Below, piece by piece: positions 23,212 through 31,500 of a stretch of 64,000 nt of DNA. A program made the translations under genes and the position numbers. How positions within the stretch are numbered: the first letter of the stretch is position 1; every line of letters begins with the position of its first letter. Source of the DNA: Chloroflexota bacterium (lineage in GTDB: Bacteria > Chloroflexota > Anaerolineae > UBA1429); assembly GCA_012729455.1 (NCBI GenBank), contig JAAYDC010000029.1, positions 1 through 64,000 of the forward strand, given 5' to 3'. The notes under the pieces are model-generated. The model saw only the letters and a program-made list of their open reading frames with translations, had not been told where the DNA came from and did not search any database.

Positions 23212-23385
23212 ATGATCCTGCATGCCCCGCGCCTGACGCTGCGGCCCCGGACGGCAGAGGATGCCGTGCGCCTTGCCCAGCCTGGCAGCGGCCCGCTCCT
23301 GGCCGAGCTGCTCTCCCGGCGCATCAGATCCCGGGTGCAGCTGGCGCACGAGTGCAAGTGGTACACCCGCGAGGATCAGCCGTGA
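23212..23385 (+). CDS. 57-aa GNAT N-terminal-like fragment
   Basis: A short ORF with ATG at 23212 and GGAG nine bases upstream. The first 22 residues (A-P-R-L-T-L-R-P-R-T-A-E-D-A) match the first strand and helix of GNAT acetyltransferases, but the acetyl-CoA-binding part is absent. It ends in a TGA that overlaps the GTG of the next gene (GTGA), so the two are translationally coupled. Likely the remnant of a GNAT gene. Note that a GNAT C-terminal remnant occurs three genes downstream. Confidence 0.45.
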   Translation: MILHAPRLTLRPRTAEDAVRLAQPGSGPLLAELLSRRIRSRVQLAHECKWYTREDQP

Positions 23386-23786
23386 AACACACGCGCAAAC
23401 CGCGCTGGTTCAAGCCCGAAGTCGCCATCCTGGGGGTGGTGCTGCTGGCGGCCCTGCTGGGCTGGCAGATCGAGCGGCGCTACCGGCCGCTGCACCGCCT
23501 CTACGACCAGGTGCGCTACGAGGCCTATAACCACTATCTCCCCTGCGAGGCCCTGCCGACCGCCAAAGAGGCCGAGGCGATCCTCGCCGACCACGCTGAA
23601 GCCGCCGAACGCATCCGCCAGACCGATCCGGGCTACACCGATATCGTGCTGGATACCGAGCGCTGCCCCGGCCGCGCGGATGCCGTGATCACCTACTTTG
23701 ACCGCGACGACCGGCGCGTGATCGAGGCGATCCTGTCGTACAGGGTCGACTTTTTCGGCATCCCGGCGCGCTGGCGCAGGAGCTAG
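23382..23786 (+). CDS. Small membrane-anchored protein, paralog of the 28.8-kb gene
   Basis: A 134-residue protein starting at GTG 23382. An N-terminal transmembrane segment (V-A-I-L-G-V-V-L-L-A-A-L-L-G-W) is followed by a soluble domain with N-H-Y-L-P-C-E-A-L-P, C-P-G-R-A-D-A-V-I-T-Y and F-F-G-I-P-A-R. Two cysteines are shared with the protein encoded at 28826-29209, which has the same order of motifs, so the pair forms a small family. Function unknown. The domain probably lies outside the membrane and may be disulfide-stabilised. It is coupled to its neighbours by very short spacings. Confidence 0.75.
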   Translation: MKHTRKPRWFKPEVAILGVVLLAALLGWQIERRYRPLHRLYDQVRYEAYNHYLPCEALPTAKEAEAILADHAEAAERIRQTDPGYTDIVLDTERCPGRADAVITYFDRDDRRVIEAILSYRVDFFGIPARWRRS

Positions 23787-28825: not shown

Positions 28826-29209
28826 TTACCGGTTAATTAATGTAACAGGTATTCCAAAAAAGGTTTTATCCGGCAGAATCTGATCAATTTGGGACCTCTG
28901 ATCTGTGGAAGCATAGTAAATGGTAATACTCCCTTTACCTGGGCATGTCCACGAATCAACCATGAATTCAACATGATCAGGATTTACATTTTTGATTTTC
29001 TCTACTATCTCGCTGTGCTCAGCAACCGTTTTCTCTACTTTGTCTATGTCGGGCAAATCGGAGCACGATAGATAGTGGTGATAATTGTTGTACAGTAGGT
29101 TGTCTACCAGCCGGTGGAACAAGTGCGTAGAGGGCTCAGAAACAGCTAAAATGACAACGACCAAAAGTAAAATAGCTACTGGTATCAGTGTTTTTACCTT
29201 TCTCATCAT
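28826..29209 (-). CDS. Small membrane-anchored protein, paralog of the 23.4-kb gene
   Basis: A 127-residue protein with ATG at 29209 and GGAGGGAG upstream. It has an N-terminal hydrophobic anchor (V-A-I-L-L-L-V-V-V-I-L-A-V). The soluble domain carries the same motif order as the 23382-23786 product: N-Y-H-H-Y-L-S-C, a charged helix with V-A-E-H-S-E-I-V-E-K-I, C-P-G-K-G-S-I-T-I-Y-Y and F-F-G-I-P-V. Both conserved cysteines are present. This copy is much more AT-rich, so it probably arrived separately rather than by recent duplication. Function unknown. Confidence 0.75.
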   Translation of the reverse strand: MMRKVKTLIPVAILLLVVVILAVSEPSTHLFHRLVDNLLYNNYHHYLSCSDLPDIDKVEKTVAEHSEIVEKIKNVNPDHVEFMVDSWTCPGKGSITIYYASTDQRSQIDQILPDKTFFGIPVTLINR

Positions 29210-29610
29210 ACTCCCTCCATATGGAGATGCTAACCCAAACTCGAATTCGTCTGTCAGTTTGCGAGTTATTTGATAGCGTCTTTCGATGAAAACATTCTAT
29301 ACCTTTCCATCCGTTCTGGCTATCCAGACCGCCAGGGGGGCGAGCTGTCATTTTCGCAAACAGTGCAATAACTCCCCTCTTACACCCCTGACCATCCTGA
29401 TTCTTACCGTCGCTGTTTCGCAGACGAAAACGGGGAGCAGGTTTTTTATAACCCTGTCCCCGCATTCGTCTGCTCTAATGACTAGGACTTCCAAGTAGCC
29501 AAGGACAAACCCTGCCTGTTATCCGGAAGGTACCCAACTTGTGTTGGGTACCTTCCGGATAACAGTATCAGGCCGCGCTTGATTATAGCAACCGATCTTG
29601 TCAGCTTTGA
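29210..29610. other. Intergenic stretch with long perfect hairpin
   Basis: AT-richer sequence with no convincing gene. Its main feature is a hairpin at 29517-29564: 22 perfectly paired bases per arm around a TTGT loop, extended by a short CCTG/CAGG pair (29511 and 29572). It lies 47 bases beyond the stop of the tyrosine phenol-lyase-like gene. No strong T-tract follows, but it may protect or terminate that mRNA. Confidence 0.7.
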
Positions 29611-31056
29611 TCAGAGCGAGCCGGGTAAATCACTGGCGAATTTTGCCGCGATTTTCTCCTGCCAATCGGAAAGCGGAGCGAGTTTACCGAGGAAAAAGCG
29701 CAGAATTTTCGGCTCATGCTCAAAGCGCAGACCGCCGATCAGATTGCGGTTTTCGTAGAGCCAGGTCACGCGATCAATCGCATAGTCGATCTGGCTCATG
29801 GTAAAGACACGGCGCGGAATCGCGAGGCGCAGCAGCTCCATCTCGGCTATTTTCTCATTGCCGTCGGCATCTCTGCTCTCACTTAATGTGCCGCGCTCCA
29901 TCCCGCGGATACCGCCGGCGATAAAGAGAGCGGCGGCAAGTGCTGCGGCAGGATACTGCTCTGACGGAATATGCGGAACAAAGCGGGAGGCGTCGAGATG
30001 GCAGCCGAGTCCGCCCGCCGGCGTCACGACCGGGACACCGCGTTCTTCCAGTTTGGCAACCATATAGGCGATAAACTCTGGGCCCTGCGAAACAACCGAG
30101 AAATCCAGCGTCTCTTCGAGCCCGACCGCGATCGCCTCAATCTCACGGACCGACATGCCGCCGTATGTGAGAAAACCTTCGTTCAGCACGACGAGCTCTT
30201 TGAGTCTGTCGACGAGCTCGCTCTCTCGCATACAGATGCCGCCGCCGCGCGCAAAGCCGAGTTTTCTCGCCGAAAAGTAGATGATATCGCACAGGTCGGC
30301 GACTGCCCGCATAATCTCGCGCAGCGAGAGGTCTTTACATTCCTCATCCTTGGTCTTGAGAAAGTAGAGATTATCCTGCAGCAGCGACGCGTCCATGACG
30401 AGGTTGATGCCGTGTTTGTGGCAGATAGCTGCCGTCTCTCTCAGGTTGGCAAAGGAGAACGGCTGTCCGCCGATCAGGTTCGTCCCCGCTTCGATGCGGA
30501 CAAACGCCACCCGGTCGTGCTCTTTATCGAGAAGTCTGGCCAGCGCCTGAGTATCGATATTGCCCTTGAACGGATGGTCGCTTTGGTATACAAGACCTTC
30601 CGGGCAGATGAGCTCGATGACCTCGCCGCCGCAGCGCTCAATATGCGCTTTGGTCGTCGTAAAGTGATAGTTCATCGGTACGATATCGCCTGGTTTCACA
30701 AGCAGGTCTGCGAGAATCTTTTCACACCCGCGGCCCTGATGAACCGGCAAAAAGTGATCCATGCCGAAAATGCCGTGAAGGGTTTTTTCGAGCCGGAAAA
30801 AGGACTCGCTGCCGGCATAGGCGTCATCGGCCTGCATCATCGCTGCCTGCTGGCGGTCGCTCATCGCGTTGACGCCGCTGTCGGTCAGCATGTCGAGGAA
30901 AATATCCTTGTTGTGGAGAAGATAGAGATTGCTCGATGCTTCCTTGATGCGTTCGAGCCGCTCTTCAACCGGGAGCAGAGTCAGCTGCTGGACAATGCGC
31001 ACCTTGTGGCGCTCGAGCGGGATTTTTCTGCCGTCGAAAAACGAGATGGTCTCCAT
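29611..31056 (-). CDS. tpl: Beta-eliminating lyase, probable tyrosine phenol-lyase
   Basis: A 481-residue PLP enzyme of the tryptophanase/tyrosine phenol-lyase family. The PLP lysine is Lys265 in F-S-A-R-K, and the phosphate-binding H-Q-G-R-G lies at 106-110. Two residues that, from memory, distinguish tyrosine phenol-lyase from tryptophanase are of the lyase type: Thr133 in H-F-T-T-T-K (Asp in tryptophanase) and Arg388 in M-E-R-G (Ile in tryptophanase). The E-L-V-V-x-x-E-G segment also matches. The reaction converts tyrosine to phenol, pyruvate and ammonia and is reversible. A Tyr-specific T-box precedes the gene. Base composition is lower in GC than in neighbours, so acquisition by transfer is plausible. 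Confidence 0.85.
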   Translation of the reverse strand: METISFFDGRKIPLERHKVRIVQQLTLLPVEERLERIKEASSNLYLLHNKDIFLDMLTDSGVNAMSDRQQAAMMQADDAYAGSESFFRLEKTLHGIFGMDHFLPVHQGRGCEKILADLLVKPGDIVPMNYHFTTTKAHIERCGGEVIELICPEGLVYQSDHPFKGNIDTQALARLLDKEHDRVAFVRIEAGTNLIGGQPFSFANLRETAAICHKHGINLVMDASLLQDNLYFLKTKDEECKDLSLREIMRAVADLCDIIYFSARKLGFARGGGICMRESELVDRLKELVVLNEGFLTYGGMSVREIEAIAVGLEETLDFSVVSQGPEFIAYMVAKLEERGVPVVTPAGGLGCHLDASRFVPHIPSEQYPAAALAAALFIAGGIRGMERGTLSESRDADGNEKIAEMELLRLAIPRRVFTMSQIDYAIDRVTWLYENRNLIGGLRFEHEPKILRFFLGKLAPLSDWQEKIAAKFASDLPGSL

Positions 31057-31143
31057 GTGTTATCCTTGTCCTCCTCTACGTTCCGTGATGCCTTTTGCGC
31101 ATACATGCTCTGGCAATCATTGTGCCGGGAGGCGAAAGGCAAC

Positions 31144-31466
31144 AAAAAAACGCCCTTCCCGACATTTTGTCGAGAGGACGTCTGTCAACGTGGTACCACC
31201 TCTCTTCGCTTTCAGCATGAACTGAAAGCCTTGACCGGTACGCCGACTTGTCACCGGAAAGATCAGGTGGGGCCATCCTGGCATAAGTCGGTTATACCGC
31301 TGCGCTGTCACGGGCGCACCCGTCGTCTCCTACCTCCGGTTATACGGTCTCAGGACGCTGCTCTCGGAATGTATTCACCTCACCGTCTGCTTTCTGCCTC
31401 GCACCACCCGGCATATCTCTGGAAGCGTCCGATGAAGCTACTTTTTCCCGGTCATGGCATTTACGG
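31144..31466 (-). promoter_or_regulatory. T-box leader, specifier UAC (tyrosine)
   Basis: Minus-strand leader of about 320 nt. Stem I elements include AGTAG, a CAGAGATATGCCGGG distal part and GGTGAA-TAC-ATTCC, in which the specifier codon is TAC at 31371-31373. The T-box core AGAGGTGGTACCACG lies at 31189-31203, with TGGT (31195-31198) complementary to an ACCA tRNA end, fitting tRNA-Tyr with discriminator A. The competing terminator is a stem at 31151-31182 followed by seven Ts. Uncharged tRNA-Tyr should turn on the downstream gene. Confidence 0.9.
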
Positions 31467-31471
31467 GCCCC

Positions 31472-31500
31472 ACCATACCACAGGAATACAAATCTGTCCA
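31472..31500 (-). promoter_or_regulatory. Promoter of the T-box transcript
   Basis: TGGACA (31495-31500), 17-base spacer, TATGGT (31472-31477) on the minus strand. The start near 31465 gives the full T-box leader. The remaining gap to 31658 holds nothing I recognise. Confidence 0.5.

Follow-up and report, generated by a model that had tools for sequence, protein, structure and literature searches.

A tyrosine T-box leader ahead of a tyrosine phenol-lyase-type enzyme in a Chloroflexota genome, and a possible route to tyrosine from phenol

Background

T-box leaders turn a gene on when the cognate tRNA is uncharged and off when it is charged. A familiar tyrosine example is the leader of Bacillus subtilis tyrS (Rfam family RF00230), with its UAC specifier, its UGGU bulge and a terminator/antiterminator switch placed before the gene. 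Tyrosine phenol-lyase (TPL, EC 4.1.99.2) belongs to a different world: in industry it is run backwards to make tyrosine and L-DOPA, while in nature it is taken as a breakdown enzyme. The catabolic TPLs of Erwinia and Citrobacter are switched on via TyrR, not by starvation (PMC1173090). The reaction is reversible, its reverse direction being well known in vitro, and in TPL the hydroxyl group of the substrate is bound by Arg381 and Thr124 (PMC9262865). The specificity residues that separate TPL from tryptophanase are Thr124, Met288, Met379, Arg381 and Phe448 (PMC5805759).

The two worlds appear to meet in the stretch of DNA analyzed here, a 64,000-nucleotide window from the genome of a Chloroflexota bacterium (the host, below). 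Our search of the open literature, at the level of titles and abstracts and with subscription papers outside its reach, turned up no report of a T-box with TPL, tryptophanase or any beta-eliminating lyase as its target, so that the link may provisionally be regarded as new.

The leader RNA and its specifier

An earlier note, made from the sequence alone, had placed before the lyase gene a T-box core, a terminator with seven T, a TAC specifier in the context GAA-TAC-A-TTCC and a TGGT in the antiterminator bulge. All four stand. The leader of the gene occupies 31057-31490 (minus strand), and a covariance search (cmscan) aligns positions 1-219 of the RF00230 model to it over its full length; the model does not shift the specifier to another codon; the T-run (31150-31144) belongs to a hairpin with a z-score of -4.7; and the TGGT lies at 31198-31195, where it would fit the acceptor end (ACCA, with A73) of the tRNA. 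Terminator and antiterminator both fold and share 31172-31182, which makes them mutually exclusive (Table 1).

Table 1. Coordinates of features (window positions unless a locus is named)
Feature	Position	Strand	Basis
T-box leader RNA, Stem I to antiterminator	31171..31464	-	RF00230 full-length match, 88.2 bits, E 8e-20
Specifier UAC (Tyr), context GUGAA-UAC-A-UUCC	31371..31373	-	RF00230 alignment; frame agrees with other T-boxes
T-box core AGAGGTGGTACCACG	31203-31189	-	sequence
Antiterminator hairpin, 7-nt UGGUACC bulge	31172..31204	-	fold and sequence
Intrinsic terminator	31144..31182 (hairpin 31149-31182, seven U 31144-31150)	-	fold, -21.9 kcal/mol, z -4.7
Promoter-like site TGGACA-17-TATGGT, TG before second hexamer	31472..31500	-	consensus scan
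Ribosome-binding site GAGGAGG	31070..31076	-	sequence
PLP-dependent beta-eliminating lyase, TPL type, 481 aa	29611..31056	-	ORF; NF009709; residues; predicted fold
Perfect 23-bp inverted repeat downstream of lyase gene, possible terminator	29516..29565		sequence
Transferred cassette	29603..31488	-	DNA similarity to Bacillota units starts and stops here
UGC-specifier T-boxes, bulge UGGU	L010:3561-3852; L013:264-554		before duplicate lyase copies

The score of the leader is less than the RF00230 gathering score of 93 bits, and a default Rfam scan of the window is accordingly silent. The reading that the window holds no T-box can be rejected as a threshold effect: four aminoacyl-tRNA synthetase T-boxes of the host genome likewise score below 93 bits, while the leaders of the same lyase gene in relatives mostly exceed that value, reaching as much as 135 bits. 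The promoter-like consensus is weak evidence when taken alone (one found, 0.3 expected); it lies on one border of the cassette described below. (The window also encodes, a few kb apart, two apparently related small membrane-anchored proteins, at 23352-23786 and 28826-29209.)

How far can the frame of the specifier be trusted? The host genome contains eight T-boxes in all, the one in the window included, and the other seven precede trpB (UGG), trpS (UGG), valS (GUC), thrS (ACC), serS (UCC), ileS (AUC) and pheS (UUC), these targets having been identified by reading their translated sequences. Because the codon at the equivalent position names the correct amino acid in 7 of these 7 controls, we trust the UAC frame, and the element in the window is, to judge by its sequence, the tyrosine T-box of the host genome. 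No T-box was found on tyrS in that genome.

The lyase: a third branch of the family

By curated models the enzyme belongs to the NF009709 / PRK13238 subfamily (588.4 bits, cut-off 285). It fails the TPL equivalog TIGR02618 (441.4 bits vs 720.7) and also both tryptophanase models (TIGR02617, 329.9 vs 825.8 bits; NF053783, 403.2 vs 750 bits). The earlier designation as a TPL-like enzyme therefore holds in part: the residues bear it out, Thr133 and Arg388 aligning with Thr124 and Arg381 of Citrobacter freundii TPL, while the curated model does not call the protein a TPL. Identity to the C. freundii enzyme is 39% (Z 50), and the residues kept from it (its numbering is used from here on) are Ser51, Tyr71, Arg100, Thr124, Asn185, Asp214, Lys257, Met379, Arg381, Arg404, Phe448 and Phe449; the differences are Arg217Leu, His343Leu, Lys256Arg and Met288Phe. 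Thus four of the five specificity residues are TPL-type, and the fifth, Met288, is Phe as in tryptophanase. The tryptophanase residues Asp137, Val394, Ile396 and His463 are replaced by Thr, Met, Arg and Phe. The claim that TPL residues stand in place of those of tryptophanase is thereby upheld in the alignment, and identity as a tryptophanase is rejected both on residues (Asp137 and His463 are absent) and on model scores.

The predicted structure (pLDDT 89) matches TPL and tryptophanase equally in a fold search, with Z-scores of 50.5 and 50.3 that cannot tell the two apart. On a quick tree, a long and fully supported stem separates the branch of the window lyase from TPL and from tryptophanase. 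Tyr71, Thr124, Lys257, Arg381, Arg404, Phe448 and Phe449 are conserved across this branch, in which Arg217 and His343 have become Leu in every member. The lyase thus belongs to an uncharacterized branch, the third alongside TPL and tryptophanase. Its link to a tRNA-Tyr switch suggests that "tryptophanase", the NCBI label (PRK13238) for this family of enzymes, is a misnomer.

Recurrence in relatives

A T-box lies directly upstream of the same lyase gene in 16 of 80 fetched relatives, in addition to the window; for twelve of these the covariance model bears the T-box out, and the other four (L012, L016, L017 and L083) were recognized by sequence pattern alone. A strict core pattern had left the nearest relatives seemingly T-box-free; that result was discarded when a relaxed pattern yielded the cores GGTGGTATCAC and GGTGGTAACAC, which the covariance model confirmed. 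Every carrier has a UAC-specified T-box, and all the T-boxes are UAC except for two that precede duplicated genes. Tyrosine is for that reason the amino acid tied to this branch of lyases, at least in the Bacillota. The carriers are scattered over the enzyme tree, in several distinct places (parsimony gives six changes, and none of 500 shuffles is as low), although this is a quick tree and its strongly supported branches alone are still compatible with one origin. At one locus (L038) two tandem T-boxes, both UAC (1412-1653 and 1963-2202), stand ahead of a single lyase gene.

Other leaders are of a different kind. At L018, L019, L020, L021 and L024 the lyase gene has no T-box upstream; instead there are GTAG-bearing repeats of about 8 nt followed by a hairpin of the type GCACTCC-ATTTT-GGGGTGC and a T-run (for example L020:1512-1577), possibly a different attenuator acting on the same lyase. 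In Bacillales, repeats of the GCGTTGAA type with an 8-nt period come just before the ribosome-binding site of the lyase gene (L023:5937-5975 and L042:5773-5812).

Duplicated copies with a changed specifier

The two exceptions to the UAC rule are instructive. L010 and L013 each carry a tandem pair of T-box-plus-lyase units whose T-boxes differ in specifier, with UAC in one and UGC (Cys) in the other. The two UGC copies cluster together on the quick tree (support 92) and share Phe448Ser and His131Pro, two changes at positions that are invariant in 79 of 79 other sequences; the L010 copy has Arg381His as well. Replacing Phe448 in C. freundii TPL lowers tyrosine cleavage a thousandfold or more and spares activity on S-ethyl-cysteine and S-alkyl-cysteine (PMC9262865). 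Since the UGC copies have lost Phe448, which is needed for tyrosine cleavage, specifier and pocket have changed together, and their joint change is consistent with a compound resembling cysteine having taken the place of tyrosine. Reading these copies as cysteine-responsive calls for caution: tRNA-Cys normally needs a UGGA bulge, and theirs is still UGGU.

What is the lyase for?

Why should an enzyme of the tyrosine-cleaving type be made when tyrosine runs short? The T-box probably senses uncharged tRNA-Tyr, with the lyase working in the synthetic direction, making tyrosine from phenol. When tyrosine is plentiful, charged tRNA-Tyr would be unable to pair with the bulge, the terminator would form and the lyase gene would be off; when it is short, uncharged tRNA-Tyr would pair at both UAC and UGGU, the antiterminator would form and lyase would be made. 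The enzyme would then generate aminoacrylate on its PLP, with either pyruvate plus ammonium or serine as the source, and add phenol at the beta carbon of the aminoacrylate to give tyrosine, with Tyr71, Thr124 and Arg381 placing the ring. Cells unable to make tyrosine from chorismate could in this way salvage phenol, in parallel to indole salvage by the trpB of the host. The T-box and its Tyr specificity, the active site of TPL type, the recurrence, the joint transfer and the missing genes are all seen in the sequences; what we infer is that the lyase runs towards tyrosine, that phenol is its natural substrate and that the leader would respond to tRNA-Tyr in vitro.

The synthetic direction is favored by a switch that opens under tyrosine shortage, and further because 1) the link recurs across lineages, 2) several carriers are without tyrosine synthesis genes, and 3) two duplicates have changed specifier and pocket together. 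The earlier note had offered synthesis through the reversible reaction as one option; on these grounds it now becomes the favored reading. Against synthesis it counts that the equilibrium is such that high ammonia and pyruvate are needed, and that Arg217 and His343 of TPL are Leu here, with the tryptophanase-like Phe for Met288.

The second of the favoring points requires some qualification for the host itself. In its genome, which is 99.2% complete, neither chorismate synthase nor aroA was found, and no tyrA scored above cut-off (a candidate on host contig C7, a weak match under every cut-off and lying amid glycosyltransferase genes, was discarded). Chorismate synthase is kept in 12 of 15 genomes of the host's family. 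In a relative, the aro genes form one operon, aroF-tyrA-aroA-aroE-aroC-aroKB, so that a gap in the assembly could account for the missing host tyrA-aroA-aroC; there is also an orphan pheA, inside a leuA-leuC-thrC-leuD-leuB-ilvE operon (L094, C30:12000-26000). For both reasons we do not claim outright that the host has lost the entire shikimate pathway. Nor was trpA found in the host, a gene that is patchy in its family (7 of 15 genomes); a trpB under its Trp T-box (C1:51738-52021, L001) without trpA fits indole salvage. Among the T-box carriers, four Bacillota MAGs (G002, G003, G005 and G006) yielded no chorismate synthase, TyrA, PheA or TrpA. In most of the remaining carriers both chorismate synthase and TyrA are present, and phenol salvage would thus be a supplement in them.

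Tyrosine could instead be broken down, for carbon, for nitrogen or to release phenol, with the T-box serving some other purpose, such as holding expression down while charged tRNA is plentiful because peptides supply the tyrosine. All characterized TPLs are named for breakdown, those activated by TyrR are catabolic (PMC1173090), and the intact TyrA of many T-box carriers is in keeping with such a role. We nevertheless regard it as unlikely: a T-box that opens with uncharged tRNA-Tyr would have breakdown deepen starvation, and in auxotrophs, such as the four carriers without tyrosine synthesis genes, a tyrosine-destroying enzyme under that control would be senseless; run in reverse, the reaction would supply tyrosine. 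The surroundings of the gene speak in the same direction, in that no gene cluster is widely shared around the lyase among relatives and, in a sample of relatives lacking the T-box, neither a tyrosine transporter nor a gene for phenol degradation was seen among those directly adjacent genes to which a name could be given.

It is less likely again that the true substrate is another beta-substituted compound (cysteine, an S-alkyl-cysteine, serine or a substituted phenol), with tyrosine involved only indirectly. The depth of the third branch, the failure at both equivalog cut-offs and the two branch-wide Leu replacements would suit such an enzyme, and TPL itself also cleaves S-alkyl-cysteines (PMC9262865). 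Against it, all members other than the two UGC copies retain Thr124, Arg381, Phe448 and Phe449, and UAC specifiers recur in T-boxes that are otherwise divergent.

Synthesis from phenol thus remains the preferred reading for the UAC-linked enzymes. The full proposal can be advanced only tentatively: that a widespread TPL-type branch constitutes a route to tyrosine from phenol that dispenses with the shikimate pathway and is induced by uncharged tRNA-Tyr, with a duplicate re-targeted to cysteine (UAC to UGC, Phe448Ser).

Transfer of the cassette

Among 15 genomes of the host's family, the host's alone has the lyase, and the rows closest to it on the quick tree are Bacillota MAGs. DNA similarity to five Bacillota loci (L009-L013; blastn, 79-83%) runs through the whole cassette, starting at the promoter-like site (about 31488) and breaking off shortly beyond the stop codon (29603), and the cassette is low in GC (0.566 vs 0.628; GC3 0.695 vs about 0.80). 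Promoter, T-box and gene, these comparisons show, were imported from Bacillota as one unit. That the unit is an inert passenger in the host, its T-box failing with the host tRNA-Tyr or its gene silent, is improbable, for in spite of the foreign composition, the exact edges and the lone occurrence in the family, the ORF, all the T-box parts and the ribosome-binding site are intact at this degree of DNA divergence, and the host uses T-boxes widely.

Comparison with known systems

Should the synthetic reading prove true, nature too runs the TPL reaction backwards, as a salvage pathway, and phenol is a shared good between microbes. The analysis also suggests a use for T-box specifiers, as a guide to what an enzyme without an assigned function produces.

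With C. freundii TPL the window lyase shares the catalytic and phenol-binding residues Tyr71, Thr124, Lys257, Arg381, Phe448 and Phe449; it differs in falling below the TPL cut-off, in its four substitutions and in its control, the Erwinia and Citrobacter enzymes being activated by TyrR. PRK13238 / NF009709 "tryptophanase" is its formal family, and the cut-off is exceeded; the name, however, implies indole chemistry, and the window lyase has Thr and Phe where Escherichia coli tryptophanase has Asp137 and His463. Salvage of indole by TrpB, for example in Chlamydia trachomatis (PMC4042155), likewise makes an aromatic amino acid from a free ring after loss of the de novo pathway; the window lyase would use phenol rather than indole, with another PLP fold type and another reaction, and the parallel is put forward as a proposal only. 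The B. subtilis tyrS leader is the nearest counterpart of the switch itself, alike in specifier, in bulge and in the alternative hairpins before the gene; what sets the window T-box apart is its target, a PLP-dependent lyase and neither a tRNA synthetase nor one of the classical biosynthetic genes.
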